Part shown: piece after piece, positions 458 to 22,762 of the stretch
How the letters are laid out: every line of letters starts with the position of its first letter
How positions within the stretch are numbered: the first letter of the stretch is position 1
Source of the DNA: Chromera velia
Taxonomy: Eukaryota; Sar; Chromeraceae
Length of the DNA: 23,130 nt
Direction: 5' to 3'
Assembly: GCA_018398765.1 (NCBI GenBank)
Contig: JAHBMJ010002057.1
Span: forward strand, 1 to 23,130
Notes under the pieces: generated by a model
The model's database searches: none
Told to the model about the DNA's origin: nothing
Seen by the model: only the letters and a program-made list of their open reading frames with translations
Made by a program: the position numbers and the translations under genes

Positions 458-3400
458 CATTTGGAACCGTCAGAGGCCCAAAGTTGACCGTCGCAGGATT
501 GGGGGGCACGGCGAGATCTGCCGTCTTATCCTCTCCGTTGACTGTCAACTTCCCCAATCTGGCTTCGATGACGTCGCCCTGTTTGCATGACAGAAACACA
601 ACATCAGACGCGCAACAACGATTTGCAATGCAAGTTCTTGCGTGAGACGAGGCTTAAACTGCGCAGAAAGAGAGACAGAAGGGAAGTGATGGTAGACAGA
701 GAAATGCCGCGTTCGTTCAAGGGGTCCTGCAGGCTTCTTTGCGCTCTTGGGGCCCTCTTCCACCCTCTCTGGCTTCTCAGTTTGTGGCTTCGTCTTACTT
801 CACCGCTGCATGCCAGGGCGTAAGTAATCTCTCCGGGGCCTTTTCTCTTCACATAGAAGCAAACGGACCCACGGCTTAAGCATCCGAAGGGGCAAATACA
901 GGAAGGAACATGCGAGGGAGGGAGAAGACAGACAGATGGGGCAACAAACAAAATTGGAATAGAAGGTGGTCTTTCCTCAGCTCACCTCTTTTGCAAAGAC
1001 CCTCTGTATTGCAAATTTATTTCCCCCCGCAGCATTCAGAATTGTTTTTCTGACTTCCTCCACAGGAACTCCCGGATTTCGTGCGGTGGTTTCCTCAACT
1101 TGTCGCGAGAGAAACGACCGCACGTACTCGGGCTGTTTGTACCACATCAGGTCTCCCGACTGGACCTCCTTCATGCCGCCTCCAGACGCGGCCTTGGCCA
1201 CGATCAAAAGGGCCCCGGAAGGAATGAGGGGCTCCAAGAGAGTGGTCCTGGAAAGCGAAGAAAAGCGGAACACGTGACTGCTTCGCTACCTCTTTCTCGA
1301 TGTATGCGTGTGACCAGAGAAAGACTCAAAGAAAACAGCATAACTGAAAGGCTACAATCAGAGAGTGAAGAATAAACGCAGAGAGAATAGAGGGTAGACC
1401 AAAAAACTGCAGAAATTCTTCCAAAAATCAAGAAGAAAAAGGTATTTCGAGTTCGGCTACGCGCCTCCGTAAGAGTTTGAGGGGCTCTGAGGTCATGAGG
1501 GATTCATTCGAAATCGGAGCAGGTGCCTCGGTGATGCCCCGCAGGCATTCCGGTTTGACTGAATGACTCAATGCCTAACTGACAGACAGATCTGCAACAG
1601 AGAAAAAGAAAACGAACGAAGTTTGACTGACTGACTGACTGACTGACTGACTGACTGTGAGTAGACTGGCTCAAAGATGAATGTCCGAGCGAAGAGGACC
1701 AGAACGAGCGTAGCCAGAAGTAGAGGGGACTTGAGAGCTTTAGAGAGTTGCTTTTGCCACTTGGCTACCTTTGACTGAGCGCAGAAAGATAGCAAGGCAG
1801 TCAGCAGGGAAAACGCTAGACATGATGATAGAAAGACGGGGGAAAGCAGATCGAGAGGTCGGCCAACACGCAGAGAAGAGATGGAAATAGATGTTGAGAC
1901 AAAAACTTCTTTCTTTCTTTCTGGAAAGCCATCGAGATCCTCTTTTTTTGGACCTAATTTTTTCGCTCATTCGCCTTTTGTTCCCACGTATTTCCTTCTT
2001 TTCTCTTTGCTTGCGTGCCTGCATGTGTATCTGTCCGTCTGTCTGTCTGTCTCTGATACCAGTGTCCATTCGCTGAACAATACTGTCATTGATTTGTGTC
2101 TTTCATTTCGCTCTTCGCTTCTTGCATTGTTCTCTGGCTCTCCCTTATGCACTCACCTTTCTCCTTGCTGCCTCTTCCCTGGCACGTTCGTCTCTCCGAA
2201 CTTCCCTCAGCTTCTCGGAAAGTTCCGTGTCAAGCAGTTCATCGGGAAGTTCGTCGTAGTCCGGAAGCTGCATGTATACACAGAGATCAGACGTACTTAT
2301 CTGTGGATATGCAATAAGTGAGAAATATACAACGGCAGCAGCTCCCTTGAAAAAGCTGTGAAAGAGCGGTGAAAGCAAATCACGCTCACTCGCTCATACT
2401 CACGCTCACTGACTCACTTGAGCCGACACTGTCCTATTCACTGATGTACCCCTCTTACTCGCTCATCTCGCCAATTCAGCCTTCTGTTTCAACTAAAAAA
2501 AAGAATCCTCTGCTGGTCTCCTTCCGATCCCCCTTTATTGCTCATTCGTTTCATCGAAGAAAACAGAAAATACGAGAGTGAGCCAGAGGGTGAAGGTGTC
2601 GCCCAGGAGTAGGTTTCCCTGGAGGAGAGGAGGGGGAGAAGGAAAACGCGCATGGGGGTGAAAAATGGAAAGCCAAGCAAGCAAACAAGCAAAAGCCCGA
2701 GGAAAGGAAGCAAGAAGAGAGAGAAAACACACCCACACACACCGACCCGAATCTGGTCATCAGTCCACCCACGCTGCAACAAACCAAAGAAAGCAACTCA
2801 GTGACGCCACAGGAGAAGAAGGAGTGTAGAACAGATCCATGAGAACAGGAGGCATGAAAGACATCTCGCACCCATCTCCCGAGGCACCGTGTTGGGTCGT
2901 TGACTTTCTTAACTCATCAAACTAGAAAAGTGCGAATGAAGTCGACAGTCAGTACAGGAACTTCTTTGCTTGAACAGATAGGGATAGTGGCGAAAGAGAG
3001 CGTCAGTATAGGAACTTCTTTGCTTGAACAGATAGGGATAGGGGCGAAAGAGAGCGTCAGTAGAGGAACTTCTTTGCTTGAATAGATAGGGGCGAAAGAA
3101 GGTTGTCCGAGAGAAGTCTAGCCTCAATATCGCGAGCACATACGAGAGAGAGAAAGGGCAGAGAGCAAACACATACGTCAAGTCTGTGCACAATTTGACG
3201 CAACGAGACATACGAAGGAAATCGTCCGCACAAGCCAAAGAAAGGCCTTCCAACGCACCTCTCATTTGCACGCCTGTCTTGAAATGTCTCCCTTCTCTCT
3301 TGCTCTTTCTGTCTCTCCGACTCGACTGACCATTTTTAGCGATCTCTCATAGAACTCTTCCGCATTCTTGAAGTCCCTGTTCAGCTCTCCTGTCTTTGAG

Positions 3401-3915
3401 ATCTCCCTCTCGTACATGTCTTTCTCCAACTCTCTCTCGTCTCCTTTGAACGCCTGCTCCACGCGGGAGCCAAGGTCAGACGTTTGGAGTTGGTACATGA
3501 ATGGAAGCGCCTTTCCACTGTCCTCTGTCTCTGTCTCGTTGACTCTGCGCAAAGTAAGGCCTCCGTATTGAGAGATCACGTCCCCATCCTCTTCCCCTCC
3601 AACACTCTCATTGCCGTCTCCTCCTGCCGCAGTGGCATTTGCCCCCCCTCCCCCGACGTCAACGCTCTGTTCCCCTTCCCGTGGCTCTTCCAGGATTCCA
3701 AGACGAAGCTCACCTCCCGCTCCTCCCGGCGACCCTCCAGGGAAGTCCCACAGCACCAAAGGAGACGGAGACGGAGACGGGAGACGCCAAGGTGCACCTC
3801 CCCTTCTTTCCCCTTGAGCAGACAGACTCTTCAAGATTCCGGCTGCAGACGGCACAAAAGCATGAGCTGCTGGGATGCAGCTCAGCACCCCACCACAAAT
3901 CAAGGCCCAACGCAT
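458..3915 (-). CDS. Plastid-targeted type I signal peptidase homologue (S26), apparently lacking both catalytic residues; partial at 3' end
   Basis: Exons, in order: 3915-3331, 2267-2157, 1774-1656, 1247-986 and 578-458. All are joined in matching phase and give 399 codons plus one base. Residues 1-19 are a signal peptide (LICGGVLSCIPAAHA) followed by F-V-P, the secondary-plastid leader signature. Residues 20 to about 190 are a Pro/Gly/acidic-rich transit and linker region. Residues 249-266 form the membrane helix ending ARTFIFEP (box A). Residues 302-308 (SGDLMWY) match box C (RGDIVVF). Residues 349-374 (KFAIQRVFAKEGDV, then GKLTVNG) match box D and the strand after it. In an ungapped comparison with the bacterial enzyme, the nucleophile Ser position is Leu275 and the general-base Lys position is Gln353. 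Active relatives cleave signal or thylakoid-transfer peptides at the membrane. This protein probably cannot by that mechanism. Box E is expected beyond the left edge. Family call is fairly sure; inactivity is inferred. Confidence 0.8.
1621..1656. repeat. TGAC (GTCA) tetranucleotide array starting at a splice donor
   Basis: About eight copies of a 4-base unit. Read on the minus strand, the first GTCAGT is the 5' splice site of the third exon of the signal-peptidase-like gene, and the array forms the first bases of the intron. Confidence 0.85.
2948..3103. repeat. 54-bp minisatellite, three copies
   Basis: Units start at 2948, 3002 and 3056, exactly 54 bp apart, and share the core GGAACTTCTTTGCTTGAA. 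The first two differ at a few bases and the third is internally shortened. The array lies in the first intron (2268-3330) of the signal-peptidase-like gene. It has no spacer/repeat structure like a CRISPR array. Confidence 0.9.
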
Positions 3916-10959: not shown

Positions 10960-13900
10960 CTAACTAAAGTCCTCCTTCACAAGTACAAATTTGGGGGGAG
11001 CACGCACCCCTCTCTGAGACTGCCCTCCCACCTGTCTGCTTGACCCCGAAAAGGGCGATCCGTTTGTCCCCTTCCCCTCTCCTTCCAATTTCTGAATTCC
11101 CTTCAAAACCGATTTTTGAATCTTCGGCCCTGCACACACAAACACCCCCACAGGTCCTTCATCCTCCTCCTCTTCCTCCTCATACATCGACGCCCCCCTC
11201 CCTCCATTGGAAGAGGGTGACAGGAGATCTTCTGTCTCCTCGCTTGGAAGAACTCTCCCGAGCTCCTGATCAAATTTTGGGTATCTGTTGAAGTGAATCT
11301 CCAAAAATTTGTGCCCTCCCGGCCCCCCCACCCCATTGGTCCTGAATGCAAGCTCACTGGGCAGCAACGTGGGCTGCCTAGAAGGATCATTCTCATTCAC
11401 CGGATGCAGGTTGGTGGATTGTCCCGGTGCCCCCCCCCCTCCTACCCCCCCGTGTCCCTTCTTCTTCAGACGTCTTCTCACCAGCTCTGCTTGGGCAACC
11501 AAGGCTTCGAGTGCAGAGATCAGCAACTCGTGCTCAGCCGGCAGCTTTTCCCTGCAATGGAATGGTCGGGTTCAAAAGTCGAACGAACGTATTGGTTGGA
11601 TGGATGTTCTATTCAATTCAAAGATAGCAGCAGCACACTATCGAAAGCTAAGCAGGCACGCAGGCAGCAAGCCGTGTGACTCATTCATTCTTGTCCTGAG
11701 TTCTCCTGAAAAATCTGTGTTCTTTCTTTCTTTCTTTCTTTCTTCCTTTCTTCCTTTCCTTCTTTCCTTCTTTCCTTCTTTCCTTTCTTTCTTTCTTTCT
11801 TTCTTTCTTCCTTTCCTTCTTTCCTTCCTTCCTTTCTTTCTTGCTTTCTTTCTTTCTTTCCTTCCTTCCTTCCTTCCTTCCTTCCTCCTTCATTCCCTTC
11901 CTCCTTCCTTCTCTCGTTTTTGAAGTCGTGAAAGGCAGAAGGAAGGAAGAAAGGAAGGAACAATAGGGGAACTCCAATATTCGCCTTGCGGGATTCACCA
12001 GATTTTTTTTTTTTCTTTCGAAAGAAGTGTCTCGCAAGTTTCCTCTCATCCCCCCCCCCCGCCCCTCACCTTGGGACTGTGATGAACAAGCTGAAAGTGA
12101 GTGGAATCTCCACAGGGCAAAGAACCAAAAAGATGAGTTCATCAAAAGCCCCGAATAATTCGTCCAACCGCCTGTTGGTCCACACAAAGTGGGCCCGTCG
12201 GATTTCCGAAAACTCTTCGATGAACGAGTCGTGGGCCTGTATGCATGCATGCATGCATGTGGTGGCATCGTGTAACAAATACATTCATTCGAATGTGCAT
12301 GCATAATGATCAAAAAGGAAGTATGCATGGATGGACGTGCCATTTATTTTCGATACAGAACCAATGGGCCTGATTTTGCAATTCACTTCTGCGTGTTCAC
12401 ATGAATTTACAGGCTTACCGACAAACATGTGCAAGGACAGGGATGGGCCTCAGCCCTGTCCTTGAGATTTTTTTCTTGGTCCCCTCACTCCCTTTCAACG
12501 TTCCCAAAATGGACCTTTTCGTGTCCACACGCCTACTCTTGATCCCACCCTGTCCCATCATCCATGCATGCATCCATCCATCCATCCCCAGATTCACAAA
12601 CCGGTTCACCATCTGACCGCCTGACAGACGAGGATGCTTTCGTATGAGACCAAAATTTCCCCCTTTCATTGCGAAAGAAAAAGCAGATAGATATTCTTAT
12701 TCGAACGTTCCATCCAGCACTTGACTGACTGACCTGGAGGCCTCCGTCTGGCCTGGGTATGTATCGAGTTCGGAACGCTGCCCCTCCCCCTGCTGCTTCC
12801 CTCTCCCTCTCTGCCTCCTCCGCAAGTATCTCCTGTCTCTTAAACCTCAAAGACATCAGCTCCGTCATGCTGTTCAAGAAACCCAAAAAAGGGGCCATGC
12901 CCGTGGTGGCTCCGATGAAAACTGCACGACGAAAGTTCACCGAATAATCCGCAGGGGCTCCAAATGGCCCGTCAATGTCGATTCTCGGGTAGATCGCGTG
13001 GCTGTCGTCGTGGAGGTCCTTTGCGGCATTGCACGCGGCAAGGAGACGGATGAAGTTCGTCGTCCACTCACCCCTCTTTCCGATCATCAGACGCAAGTCT
13101 CGCTCTGAAGGCGAGCTGCATGTAAGGGGAACAAACAAAAAGGAGGCAGGAAGGAAGGTACACTTCTTCATGGGTTGTCGCAGGAGGGGTCAACAATGAA
13201 AGCGAGATGGACAGAGCGCGCGCGCGCGAGAGAGAGAGAGAGAGACAGAGAGACAGAGTCTGCCGCTACGGAAACCTTTAAGTGAAAATCTGCTGGTGCG
13301 TGGCCAAGAAAGAAATGATAAACCTGGTGTCAAAGGCCTTTGTTCCTTCCAGTATTTCATGATGCACCAATGAGGATAGATAGAGAGGAAGAGTAATGCA
13401 GCTCAAAGAGAAGCAGACGGTCGTACATGTCTGTACGCAGTGCATGCAGAACAGAAGCAACTCTCACTTCTTCACAAAGAAGCTCCTGCTAGCCTACTGA
13501 CCTACCTGCACAGGGCAAAGGAATGCCACCGAATGAGGCATTTGCTTTCATACAGAAATGAGCCCTGAAAAAGAACTCTGTATGAAAGCAAATGCATGCA
13601 CTGACCTGCACAGGGAGAATGGATGCCACTGAATGAGGGAGATCTTGGGGCACCTCACCCAGATGACTTGTCCAGCTCGACACTGGACGTAGGCGGGTCG
13701 GACGATTTTCACAAACGCCACTGTTGCATCCAATACCATAGCGCTGTCCTCTTCCCTCTCCTTTTCTTGTCTCGCCGGACTCGCGGCTCCTTTGTCCTTC
13801 TGCCTCCTTTTTTGATCTGCCTCACTCAAGACCACAACCGCATGACGAATCACGCAGTCAGTCAAAACGGTGAGCGTCCGATACCGTCTCCACCAAAGGT

Positions 13901-14335
13901 CTCCGAGGTAAATCAAGAAACAAGGCAGCCCCCAGAAAACCAGATTCGTGAACCCATATGCAAAGTTGCCCTTCCACCCGTGGAGCATCAACAGAGGAAC
14001 AACAGAGTAGAAGAGCCAGTGAGTCAGATAGAAGACTTCAAAATTGGAGGTGCGAACAGCAGGAAGCGACATGATGCCTATCGCGAGAAACACCGCGACC
14101 AGCGCATACCTGCATCCACCCATAAATTCATTCACAACTTGAAAGATAATGATGATCAAAGGTCTGGGATAACACGCTTTGCCTTTCTCAGTCTCGTGTA
14201 TTGAATTGAAAAACAACAAAAAGAAAAAGAAATAAACGGGCAAAACGGTCTTGGGGTCGGTTTGAAATAAAATTTCGAAGCAGGAGAGAATTGCTAGCTG
14301 GCCTCGCTTCTCTCTTACACTGCGTTTGCACTTTG

Positions 14336-14371
<36 letters not shown>

Positions 14372-17098
14372 ATGAATTCACTCACGCACTGACTGACTGT
14401 CTCACGCTCCCACCCACACATGGATGTCTGTCAGTCTATCTGAGCGCTAGCTGCTTTCAGCTTACTCGTTCACTCACCCTGAGATGCTGGTTTGAGAGAT
14501 CAGCAGATCCGAGTAAGAGGGCACTGCTGTCACCGTCTCCCCCTCCCTCAATCACGAAGTTCAGATCGTCAACAGAAGCCTCAGTCAGACCCCTGTATGT
14601 CCCACTCAGGTGAGAGCACACGTGCCCCAAGGAGGCCACCATCAACCAGGAGGCAGCGCCCATGTGGGCGATCCGGTGCTCGTCCAGAACTGTACGAAGG
14701 GCCTGCCAATTCGCCAAGCAGCTGTTACGAACTGCAGTGATCAGTCCCCTGCGGAAACCAAAAAAAAGAAAATCGGCACAAAATGACACAGTTTTGAATG
14801 CACCTTTTTCGTGTCTGTGGGGCTGTTTCTCGTCATCGGAAAGATCATTTCGCAAAAGGGGGTGGAAAGTAAAAAAATTCAAACAGGACAACGCCAGTCG
14901 ACAGATGAGATGTGGAAGCCACGAGAGAGACTAGTGGTGACCCTAACAGGTGATCGATTTTGTGACTGTCCTGACCGTCACCATCAAGATGGATTTGCAA
15001 GCCCAAATCATGGCAGGAAAACCAATGACCGACAAATCGACCTAAAAAAGGAAAGAAAAACACGTGTGCAAACGGCGAAGAAATGGAGACAGCCAGAGCA
15101 TCCTTCTGAATGACAGACCTGGACATGAGGAGGAAACAGAGTCCGACCAGGCCGTGGGCCGTCAGAGCGAACGACCGGGCACACACGAGGCCCCAACCGA
15201 TTCGGAAAGGGAACTCACGAGTGTTGGAGTACAGCGCAAAGCCGAGACCAAACAAAACGAAGACCGCAATCGTCACGAACACCTGCAAGAAGGAAGTGAG
15301 GGGGGGGGGGAAGGATGAAACTGTCCAAAGGACTGACGCAAAAGCTGCAGGACGCATGCAGAGTTTCTTTTTGTCGTCTGTGAAGTGCAATCGAGAAAAC
15401 AACAAAGAGGATGGATTTTTTTTTCATGTCAGGGAGAAAGAAGGACTTCTTCTCCGGCTTCACAAACAGATCTTCCGCTTGCAGGATGCTTTTTCCCTTC
15501 CTCTTCTCGCCCCTTGCCAGTACATCTTGATTGCCCTTTGTTTCTCTCTTCTTTTCTTTTCTGGGGATGAGTGCCCTCTCTGCCCATGAAGCCACTGATC
15601 AGATCGGTTCTGCATTCTGTACGGAATCCATCCTGGAACAAACACACAAAAATCCTCAGCATCAAAATGAGCATACCTGCGCTGCACTCTGGAAGAAGTC
15701 CTTCAAGGTTTCTACCCTCTCAAAGCCCCACGACCTCAGACGACTGTGAGCCTGCACAGGCTGCTGGACGGCCTGCTTATCTCGGTGGTGTTTGCTCTCA
15801 GACGGCCTCTTCCCGTGTGCGTGCAGCTGGCTGTGATTCGGATGGGAATGTGAGATCAAAAGGTGATTGTTATGCATAGAACGGGGAGAGTGGGAAGCTG
15901 CTTTTGATCGATGGGACTCTGATCGGGCGCCCCCCTCTGTGATCGGTGCCACTGGATTCTCTGTGGCCGCCATCGGTTGGGAAATTTTGCGAAGGATCAC
16001 AGGAGATGCTAGGGAGCCCCGAATTTTGGACGATCTCCTTTGCAGCATCAGTGAACCTCTGTGTGCTACTTCGAAAGCTAAATGTTCCTCCATCTCCCTC
16101 TCCTCTTCTACCATGAGGCACTGTACTGCTGTCTGTAGGCGCTCCATTAGCGCCTGCTCCCCTCGCGGGGTACCGCAACCGGGTGCGGATAAGTAGGGTC
16201 GATTGTGTTCCGAAGAAGCGCGGGGTGCGAGTCCTGCCCGGGGGGGGAAGGCGAGAGAGAGACCTGTTCCCGCTCCTGGAACGGCTCCGTTTTCAGTTCC
16301 CTCTCCCGTCGGTTGAACCGAGGGAGGGGGAGCTTCACTCTCCAAACTCGGCTGTGGGACAGGTGACTCCTTCAATCCTTCGTTCGCTGTGCCGGTTGGG
16401 GGTGTGGGCTCGGTCTTGGCTCGGACTTCGGCATGGTTGGCGTCGGAAGGGGGGGCAATGGGTTGTGGTGGCAGGGTTCGAGATACGTCTGCAGGCGGAG
16501 GTGCGGCAGGTACTGGGGCGTGAGAGGAAGCGGTGAGGCCAAATCGTGTCGACTGCGAAGTGAGACGGTTTTTGAGAAAGAGTGCGAGCGCCATGGCATG
16601 AAGGCTGTTGGGAGAAATGTCAATTCCCAGAACTGTCTTGCAATGAGAAAGGACGGAGATGAGCTCGTTAAGGTCTTTGTAGGTCGTCGGGTCCAGACGC
16701 GCTCTTACCTCCGCATCTGAATCTTTCTCTTTGACTGCTCTCGCATGTCTTTCTCGGAAGTCATGGATACCCTGGGCTTTCAGGGTCATTGCATGAAGGT
16801 CTTGGGATTGCTGGGGCTGCACGCCGCTGGAAGACATGTCGGCAGCATCCGGACTCCCCCCACCGGATCGACGTCTCGGAGGGACGAACAAATTTCGAAT
16901 CGACCCTTCCTTACCCTGCTTGTTTCCAGGGGTCTCTGCCGTGAGAGAGGGAATCTCACCTCCTGTCTCCATATTCTCTGCGGCATTATCATCTGCAGGT
17001 CCCCCTCTCTGAGTGAATCCCATTGTCCCCTCCCCATCGCGCTTTACCTGAAGCCAGCCAGCGTCCGATCCTTCCGAGCCACGCTTTGGCGAAGACAT
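10960..17098 (-). CDS. NADPH oxidase (NOX family), about 1157 aa, seven exons, long N-terminal extension
   Basis: Exons, in order: 17098-15677, 15282-15119, 14748-14534, 14137-13606, 13115-12734, 12236-12070 and 11551-10960 (stop TAG). The enzyme moves electrons from NADPH through FAD and two haems across a membrane to oxygen. Residues 1-474 are a Pro/Ser/Gly-rich, probably disordered extension without EF-hands. An in-frame stop 12 bases upstream supports the start. Haem ligands are His557/His571 (13 residues between) and His640/His653 (12 between), the NOX spacing. HPFSL (772-776) is the FAD motif. GPFGAP (827-832), FIGATTGMAPF (844-854), HFVWTNR (921-927) and VGVFVCAGP (to 1103) are NADPH-domain motifs. 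The tail KFVLVKEDFS resembles the NOX2 C-terminus with one extra Ser. A Gly-rich loop and poly-Glu (about 1083-1093) are inserted in the NADPH lobe. The junction between exons 3 and 4 is the least certain, because its acceptor TTTCAAG is weak. Confidence 0.88.
11720..11885. repeat. Long polypyrimidine/polypurine tract (TTTC/TTCC units)
   Basis: About 165 bp is almost entirely C and T on the plus strand, built from TTTC and CCTT units. It lies in the last intron (11552-12069) of the NOX gene, so it is a GAAA/GGAA purine run in the transcript. It yields a Lys/Glu/Arg-rich shadow frame on the minus strand and Ser/Phe-rich frames on the plus strand. Confidence 0.95.
13216..13258. repeat. CG dinucleotide run followed by GA run
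   Basis: About six CG units pass into GA repeats, then GACAGA units. The tract lies in the NOX intron 13116-13605. Confidence 0.85.
13504..13638. repeat. 100-bp-spaced duplication of a NOX exon end and splice donor, with a 19-bp inverted repeat between
   Basis: A 34-bp segment at 13605-13638 holds the end of NOX exon 4 (the HPFSL codons) and the first base of its donor GT. It is copied at 13505-13538 with 29 of 34 bases identical and a spacing of exactly 100 bp. Between the copies, 13538-13556 and 13577-13595 are perfect inverted repeats of 19 bp around a 20-base loop. The second copy keeps an intact CAG|GTAG donor. Confidence 0.85.
14339..14366. repeat. CT dinucleotide microsatellite
   Basis: About 14 CT units lie in the NOX intron 14138-14533. 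Confidence 0.9.
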
Positions 17099-18202: not shown

Positions 18203-19430
18203 ATGTCAGGGGAAATTACTCCTCTTCTTCTTTCGTCACCTGGAGAAGAGCTTCAGGCAGATGGATTGGGAGAACAGCTTCAGCACAGTGGAGCACACGC
18301 TAGTCATGCAGAACCAGAGTTGTGCAGAGTTTGTCGCCAGGGCAGCAGTCGTGTCGACATGGGAGAGCTGATTCATCCGTGCAGGTAATTTGGAGGTCGG
18401 GTCGCATCGTCAAACGATGGGCAACCTGTGCTTTGCCCGTGATACATCACATCTCCCTAAAGCCGCTTCAAAGCCTGTTCTTCTCACGCTTGTCCACGGG
18501 ATACCTGAGCGCTTGCAGATGCACCGGGAACCTGAGGTTTGTGCATCGCGAGTGCCTGAACGACTGGCGAGCTTTCGATGGTTCAGCATTCTACTGCGAT
18601 CTTTGTCGCCAAGACTACGAGTTTGAAGTGGCTCCAATCCGAATGAAATCCTGTTTCGTCCAGACTTTGGTGGTCATCGTTGGTCTTTCGATGGTTGCCT
18701 TCTTCGTTCTGTGTGCCGGTCTCATGGGAGCCGCCCTGAATGAATGGGGCGCTTGGGACGAGTTCGGATTCGATCTGGTGGCCTTCTGGTACGAAACCAA
18801 AGAACGGCAACAAGATGTGATGGAGCACACTGAGAAATACTCTCGAGTGGCTCTGCTGGGCTTTGTTGGCATGGGAATCACTGGCTGGGTCTCGTGGCTC
18901 CTCATCAGCCTCTTTGCCTGCTTTCGCAATGGCTACATGCACCAACAACCGCAATTCCACACTTTCCACGAAGAGGAGGATAGACGGTTGGCAGAGAATG
19001 TACGACGCGGAGTCGATCCCGTCGCCCGCATGAGTTTTTTACGGCCGAGTCGCTTGTGCTGCGCGCCAACAGACTTCTTGAACCCCTGCCCCAGACTGTA
19101 CAGCTACGCATGCCCCGCGAACCCTCTGGATGGGCCAGACTGTTCCTACACATGTTGTTCCTGTTGTTCGAGCATGCTTTTCTGCGGAAGCAGAAGTCCA
19201 CCTCCTCATAATCCTATTCAGCCCGTATTCAATAGAGAGAATCGATGCGGCGCCTCGTGCTGTTCTGTAGCGATGTACCTCTGTTTCGTGGCCGTGTCCT
19301 TCTCGGAGCAGTGATCTTCATCGTCTCTCCCTTCGTTTGGTTCTACCTTCTGCTGCGAGAACTGATCGTGAGGAGGTTCCCAGTGAAGAACTTCGAAGAG
19401 GCGCCGTTGCAGATGGAGGAGCAGGTATGA
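18203..19430 (+). CDS. RING-CH (MARCH-type) membrane E3 ubiquitin ligase, about 306 aa
   Basis: Exon 1 is 18203-18384 and exon 2 starts at 18519. The junction (GCAG|GTAATT ... CTTGCAG|ATG) falls inside the zinc domain and restores it exactly. The C4HC3 ligands are Cys41, Cys44, Cys60, Cys62, His70, Cys73, Cys87 and Cys90, with Trp77 before the last pair. This is the RING-CH finger that recruits an E2. Two membrane helices follow, at about 106-131 (FVQTLVVIVGLSMVAFFVL) and 171-195. The end is ambiguous. The exon 2 frame closes with TGA at 19312, while a hydrophobic, coding-like tail (GAVIFIVSPFVWFYLLLREL) continues in another frame to TGA at 19428. An intron at 19098-19270 (CT|GTACAG ... TTCTGTAG|C) restores the frame and gives a third helix. 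Family members ubiquitinate membrane proteins in the endomembrane system. The substrate cannot be guessed. Confidence 0.82.
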
Positions 19431-21640: not shown

Positions 21641-22762
21641 GGTGGGTGTGTGTGTGTGTGAGAGAGGGGGAGGGAGAGAAGGTCTTCAGATTTTTCGGAC
21701 AGCTGCCACCTGAAGGTGAATCTCAACTCAAATGTGATATCTCTGTTTGTTTCAACATTTCAAACCCCTTCACTTTGGTATCTGCATGCGTTAGCTAAGT
21801 TGAAACACGTGTGTGTGTGTGTGTCCTGTCCTGTCCGTGAAATCAACTGACCCCCCTCCAGGTCCACTATGGGCACAGGAGATGAGTACTTGAGGGGGAG
21901 GTGCTCTGAGGGTGCGAGTCTGCCCGCGCTCTGGGAAAGGCCACTGTGGAACTCATCCCATGAGACCAGCCCGTCGCTGTCCGTATCGAGAGCATCGAAC
22001 ACTTTCTTGAAAGTCGAATCGCAGTAGAAGTCTGCAGACAAACAGGCAGGCAGGCATACGATGCGGTGCAGAGAAAGGAAGACGTGTGGAAAGTGTTCAG
22101 CATTCAGCTATTCGGACGTCAATCCACATTGACAGACAGAGGTCTGATGCCGTGATGCAAAAAGAGAGGAAGCAGTCTCGTTCTTTTGAGGAGAAACAGA
22201 TAGCGATACATCTGCATAGATAGATAGATAGGTAGATAGACACGAGCCAAAAACAAGAATACAACTTAAGGATTCGGCAACGCACCCTGTCGATCTCTCT
22301 CTCTCTCTCTATCGCTCTCCCTCCCCCCACTCTCTGCATCTCACTCCCTTTCTGTGTCGCCCACTCTCTCCCTTCCTCTCTCTCTCTCACTCACTCTCTT
22401 TTCAGGAAGGCCGACCGACCGACCGTCTCCCACAAGGGCAGAGATTCCGGTCTTGAACTCGTCGTATACCAGCGCTTTGCTGTACGACCCTGAGATCTGC
22501 TTGAACGCATCTGCACGTACGAAGAGAAAGAAAGAATGAATCCAAATCCAACATTCACAGGCAACCGAAATCCCAAGGGACGGGATCCATGGGCATCGGT
22601 TTCAAAAAAGTCGATACAACAGACTCACACGCGCACCGCACACAGGCAGACCCTTCCCGACGTGCCCGACTGACCTCTATACGAGGAGAACTTTTCTTCT
22701 ACTGCAGGAAAAGAGCCAAAGGGGGACAGAAGAATTTCACGTAAGATCGTACAACGAATCAT
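20374..22762 (-). CDS. EF-hand calcium-binding protein, about 194 aa, eight exons
   Basis: Exons, in order: 22762-22741 (tentative), 22701-22675, 22510-22424, 22031-21852, 21508-21456, 21092-21045, 20739-20665 and 20466-20374 (stop TGA). Every junction is GT/AG and phase-consistent, totalling 195 codons. One canonical EF-hand loop, DTDSDGLVSWDE (61-72), has acidic residues at 1, 3 and 5, Gly at 6 and Glu at 12. The preceding motif (about 23-34, SGSYSKALVYDE) has the same layout but lacks the early acidic ligands, so it is probably a non-binding partner hand. The C-terminal half (GFERFLSG, GENEFEKLW) looks like degenerate EF helices. A calcium sensor or adaptor is likely; the target is unknown. 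The first exon is weakest because its intron (22702-22740) would be only 39 nt and the N-terminus may lie elsewhere. Two internal exons are only 27 and 48 nt. Confidence 0.7.
21181..21290. repeat. 51-bp perfect direct duplication
   Basis: 21181-21231 and 21240-21290 are identical over 51 bp, separated by 8 bp. They lie in the intron 21093-21455 of the EF-hand gene. The identity suggests a recent duplication, or an assembly artefact. Confidence 0.95.
21577..21660. repeat. CT run followed by GT run
   Basis: About 12 CT units are followed by about 17 GT units and then an interrupted GT stretch. The tract lies in the intron 21509-21851 of the EF-hand gene. Confidence 0.95.

Follow-up and report, generated by a model that had tools for sequence, protein, structure and literature searches.

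Here, we analysed a 23,130-base contig of Chromera velia, which in its full length is called the window. Its minus strand carries, from 3915 to 458, a gene that we read as six exons (3915-3331, 2773-2747, 2267-2157, 1774-1656, 1247-986 and 578-458), with GT and AG at each junction used and a frame that stays open across all of them. Judged by sequence, the gene is real and its product is homologous to type I signal peptidases (S26A). The six-exon model yields 408 residues so far: the gene runs off the contig edge at base 1, so that box E and the rest of the 3′ end are cut off and the next exon would lie off the contig.

Exon 1 (3331..3915) comprises the start codon, a signal-peptide-like leader that ends in AHA before FVPS and an acidic low-complexity part; it was defined by its open frame, the hydropathy of the leader and a donor with ATG followed by gtcagt. 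The sequence-only reading of this locus had described an intact frame over five exons; the open frame held up, and the exon count was extended to six by an optional phase 0 micro-exon of 27 bases (2747..2773; RGWTDDQIR), placed solely by its good splice sites (gttgcag and gtcggt). As this micro-exon adds nine frame-neutral residues, Leu275 and Gln353 of the earlier numbering correspond to Leu284 and Gln362 here. Exon 3 (2157..2267) is an open frame between the sites catgcag and gtgagt and encodes a charged linker. Exon 4 (1656..1774), placed by profile alignment and splice models, encodes a transmembrane helix and box A (ARTFIFEP); where it ends on the 3′ side is uncertain, as intron 4 starts with a gtca repeat visible in the sequence (1612..1663), which offers in-phase donors at 1656, 1644 and 1632 for the acceptor at 1247. 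Profile alignment and splice enumeration assign to exon 5 (986..1247) the place of box B (LLEPLIPSG), box C (SGDLMWY) and the beginning of box D (FAIQRVFAKE, with Gln for Lys), whereas the remainder of box D (GDVIEARLGKLTVNG) and FGPLTVPN, followed by the donor gtttgt, belong to exon 6 (458..578) according to the gene model and profile alignment. The signal-peptidase core is preceded by a single, strongly hydrophobic helix (mean hydropathy 2.07) at residues 257-275. By eye, intron 1 shows a direct repeat at about 2940-3090 with three nearly identical units, each some 55-60 bases long.

Three further loci were noticed on the contig. Ferric reductase / NADPH oxidase-like exons lie on the minus strand at 12533-15423, with 27.6 bits for FAD_binding_8 (cut-off 22) and 24.5 bits for Ferric_reduct, which is below the cut-off of 28. 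A RING-variant membrane protein (RINGv, 31.4 bits) is encoded on the plus strand at 18304-19314, and an EF-hand-like exon on the minus strand at 21760-22107 scores 24.7 bits, just under the cut-off of 25.4.

Relationship to type I signal peptidases

The Pfam profile Peptidase_S26 (PF10502) matches residues 259-387 of the spliced protein with 38.8 bits (E 1.2e-9) against a cut-off of 22.9, and boxes A, C and D occur in the order proposed before on the minus strand between 458 and 3915 (ARTFIFEP, SGDLMWY and FAIQRV, together with EGDV and GKLTVNG). For TIGR02227 (NCBIfam), the score of 38.4 bits, obtained with a query truncated at its 3′ end, lies under the cut-off of 47. Three further S26 genes, all with Ser and Lys, were found in the genome on contigs C86, C3334 and C1491 (loci L007, L008 and L009), by which names we refer to them. 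The paralogue with catalytic residues that had been sought in the same genome is C86, a thylakoid-type S26 gene with PSLSM, YIKR, box E (GDNRNASYDS) and a score of 132.9 bits for S26. Its leader ends in VIA before FRNG, and its best prokaryote matches are cyanobacteria (49% over the best segment). The window protein shares 28% identity with C86, with boxes A, C and D as well as FGPLTVP kept. C3334 (SDSM and CKR) and C1491 (GPSM and CKR) are presumably relatives of mitochondrial inner membrane peptidases.

A profile built from 80 bacterial relatives gave 35.2 bits for the window protein (best stretch 32.7) and 180.4 bits for C86. An alignment of the window protein with C86 and C3334 had 516 confirmed relatives, of which the best 80 make up these rows; in the scan for relatives, one pattern of two contained [KQ]R, which allowed both Lys and Gln and sought no other residue. 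The window protein has the longest end branch of an 83-row tree (7.17 changes per column) and no reliable place in it, and its best phmmer matches are a mixture of Paenibacillus and cyanobacteria. In a collection of genome contigs, a search for relatives of the window protein gave 59 pattern matches and no relative. No second copy or haplotype was found in the genome itself, since three of four matches were the window and the fourth (E 7.8) was a chance match, and a Pfam family search of the genome for the missing box E exon at E 10 gave eight matches with nothing beyond the three paralogues. The single match of a sequence search in the PDB, a lipoyl-domain protein (E 0.006), was rejected as a relative.

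The position of the catalytic Lys

In the window protein, the position of the catalytic Lys is occupied by Gln362 (codon CAG), which lies inside exon 5 and is separated from the exon 5 donor by six codons (RVFAKE). All 80 bacterial rows and C86 have Lys in this column. Enumerating splice models for the junction between exons 4 and 5 gave 1011, of which 988 have Gln in the column and the other 23 a gap; no model has Lys. For exon 5 together with intron 5, 3663 models stayed open, and Lys entered the column in 65 of them, the best of which reached 31.9 bits compared to 38.4 bits for the plain reading; this top-scoring Lys-bearing model draws on intron 5 sequence translated as FYVKR. We thus judge the Gln in place of Lys to be real, as proposed earlier, and the loss of the catalytic Lys has good support at the level of the sequence.

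An open stretch of intron 5 (820-858, minus strand; FYVKRKGPGEITY) resembles a canonical box D (Y-V-K-R). The resemblance is probably due to chance, although the stretch could be a mutually exclusive exon.

The position of the catalytic Ser

Splice sites were scored with matrices derived from reference introns of tubulin-like genes (13) and ubiquitin-conjugating genes (14), which were picked for keeping the protein continuous and had to begin with GT and end with AG. Of the 27 introns, one (score 26, AAG acceptor) was dropped, with which CAG acceptors would amount to 26/27; all 26 introns used end in CAG, and G precedes the donor in 18. The matrices also took in four introns of the window gene, and the cost of 8 bits per extra micro-exon was our own choice. 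Acceptors in this genome are near-uniformly GCAG (23 of the 26 introns used; loci L113-L118 and L120-L144), which could aid gene finding here.

The gtca repeat with which intron 4 opens provides a donor every four bases and, for each acceptor, an in-phase donor every twelve. Joining donor 1656 to acceptor 1247 reads EPVYSQTTLLEPLIPSGALLIVAK and places Leu284 at the nucleophile position, with 38.4 bits and a spacing of 23 from the Glu of box A to the Lys position, a spacing that is found in 81/81 rows. The form 1667/1231 reads EPPLIPSGALL, with Ala at this place, 43.8 bits and a spacing of 14. Two forms bring in Ser: 1644/1247 reads EPVYSQSVSQTTLLEP, with Ser at nucleophile distance from box A, 38.0 bits and a spacing of 27, and 1640/1231 reads EPVYSQSVSQSPLIPSG, with the exact box spacing of 23 and 41.5 bits, for which a GAG acceptor is required. 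Overall, a spacing of 23 occurs in 2/34 single-intron forms holding both anchors (one with Leu, one with Ser) and in 6/946 micro-exon forms. The 1011 junction models include no P-S-x-S-M-like motif.

The profile alone does not select the Leu form, as it ranks 40th of 1011 by this score and is exceeded by 39 forms, several of them with Ser or Ala. With splice sites and profile combined, the Leu form comes first among the same 1011 forms (48.6), followed by the Ser form 1644/1247 in second (47.0) and 1632/1247 in fourth place (46.3), while 1640/1231 ranks 41st and the Ala form 115th. The lead of 1.6 bits over the 1644 form is small. Donor 1656 is the top-scoring of the repeat donors (5.78 compared to 4.58). 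Its acceptor at 1247 (CAG) scores 4.4 and is a CCAG, a kind absent from the 26 reference introns; acceptor 1231 (GAG) scores −4.3, and an unused GCAG acceptor inside intron 4 at 1591 (gttgcag), the use of which would call for a micro-exon, scores 4.3.

On this basis, Leu284 probably stands at the nucleophile place and Ser is probably lost, a reading of the sequence that depends on the splice form. The sequence-only reading had weighed two placements of box B and concluded that the residue is not Ser either way; this was not exhaustive, because the gtca repeat supplies several in-phase donors and thereby a Ser form close behind the Leu form. Of its claim that both catalytic residues are lost, the part on Lys stands, and the part on Ser is favoured yet splice-dependent.

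Discussion

Has the window protein lost both catalytic residues or Lys alone? A protein that kept Ser would arise if exon 4 ended at a later donor (forms 1644/1247, 1632/1247 or 1640/1231), which yields EPVYSQSVS, and we regard this as unlikely, though as the best of the alternatives. It draws on the second and fourth combined ranks of the forms using acceptor 1247, and on the good profile score and exact box spacing of 1640/1231. However, half of the places in the SVSQ repeat are Ser, and a Ser at the nucleophile place therefore comes cheaply by chance. The 1644 form moreover departs from the otherwise invariant spacing (27 instead of 23), 1640/1231 needs a GAG acceptor where all reference introns used have CAG, and donor 1656 outscores the other donors of the repeat. 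Even with Ser retained, little or no activity would be expected, since Gln cannot act as a general base.

Recent inactivation is possible, and a decaying gene that lost catalysis and serves no present function would agree with a single copy in the assembly, cut at the contig end, with the very long end branch (7.17) and with the single base that separates Lys from Gln. We nevertheless hold such decay to be quite improbable. The open frame, the GT-AG sites throughout, the kept boxes C and D and a GC content by codon position of 0.63, 0.46 and 0.58, compared to 0.45-0.51 in the introns of the gene, argue against an old pseudogene; the divergence of box B extends over its whole length and exceeds one base, in contrast to boxes A, C and D and FGPLTVP, which are retained. 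Least probable is an active peptidase with misread catalytic exons. Box D could then come from a mutually exclusive intron 5 exon (FYVKRKGPGEITY) or box B from an exon within intron 4, or the assembly could contain a base error. In favour of this are the YVKR that intron 5 encodes in open frame and the strong unused acceptor at 1591 (4.3, compared to 4.4 for 1247), but the Lys-bearing forms stay at or below 31.9 bits compared to 38.4 and lack RVFAKE, no junction model contains the box B motif, and a base error at Lys would leave box B unexplained.

Judging from the sequence, the product of the gene is most likely a signal-peptidase homologue that has diverged and become non-catalytic, and it may belong to a plastid. 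We lean towards a membrane-anchored S26A homologue that would be devoid of proteolytic activity, most likely with Leu284 at the nucleophile place, and that would enter the plastid and bind without cutting. With Gln at the place of the active-site Lys, the protein probably binds or holds other proteins and does not cut them. The basis for plastid targeting consists of the signal-peptide-like leader followed by Phe (AHA before FVPS), its hydropathy and the similar start of C86 (VIA before FRNG) only. In the mechanism that we propose, the leader would carry the protein into the plastid, where its one helix would anchor it in an internal membrane. The S26 core would be kept, along with part of the substrate groove (the strands of box C and box D), and the protein could then hold on to targeting peptides, or to the active C86 peptidase, without any cleavage, much as has been proposed for SipA and a partner in Streptococcus. 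It may have a role as scaffold, binding factor or regulator. A more tentative proposal, which we consider rather doubtful, is a conserved pseudo-signal-peptidase of a photosynthetic protist's complex plastid that has lost both catalytic residues and assists the active thylakoid peptidase, either as a subunit that binds presequences or as its regulator. If true, the plastid signal peptidase would consist of a cutting and a non-cutting partner.

To our knowledge, no dead signal peptidase has been described in a plastid setting. Among the matches listed from open-licence literature (titles and abstract openings), none described a plastid signal peptidase without catalytic function, which is weak evidence of novelty. 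Bacterial counterparts exist. In SipA of Streptococcus pyogenes, Asp and Gly replace Ser and Lys, and the excerpt of the source used here describes a kept peptide cleft and no peptidase activity (PMC4049620). Like the window protein, SipA is thus a signal-peptidase homologue without the catalytic Lys (and, in its case, also without Ser); it differs in being bacterial, in its role in pilus assembly and in having Asp and Gly where the window protein has Leu (probably) and Gln, and its cleft was shown by a crystal structure, whereas the window protein is known here from sequence alone (PMC4049620). SpsA of Staphylococcus aureus, described as lacking two catalytic residues, likewise is a homologue that occurs beside an active enzyme (SpsB); unlike the window protein, it is bacterial and dispensable, and the excerpt drawn on ascribes no function to it (PMC12445088).

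On the plastid side, the S26A core is shared with C86 and with Plsp1, Plsp2A and Plsp2B of Arabidopsis (thylakoidal processing or plastidic type I signal peptidases), as are the one membrane helix before box A and possibly a plastid-directed leader. The Ser-Lys dyad is present in C86 by its sequence and in the Arabidopsis enzymes according to the literature (PMC3210150); in the window protein, by contrast, neither the Lys nor a regular box B is found. In the portion of that source used here, Arabidopsis Plsp1 and Plsp2 are given as functionally different (PMC3210150). Members of the S26 family in Arabidopsis and rice are described, in the part of the text consulted, with either Ser and Lys or Ser and His (PMC1560137).

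In bacteria, a small number of signal peptidases are dead, and SipA among these is required for assembling other proteins. A plastid case, which for now rests on one gene, would allow asking what the signal-peptidase fold does without catalysis. If true, a dead signal peptidase in the plastid would suggest that complex plastids trim imported proteins with the help of a ‘non-cutting’ partner.
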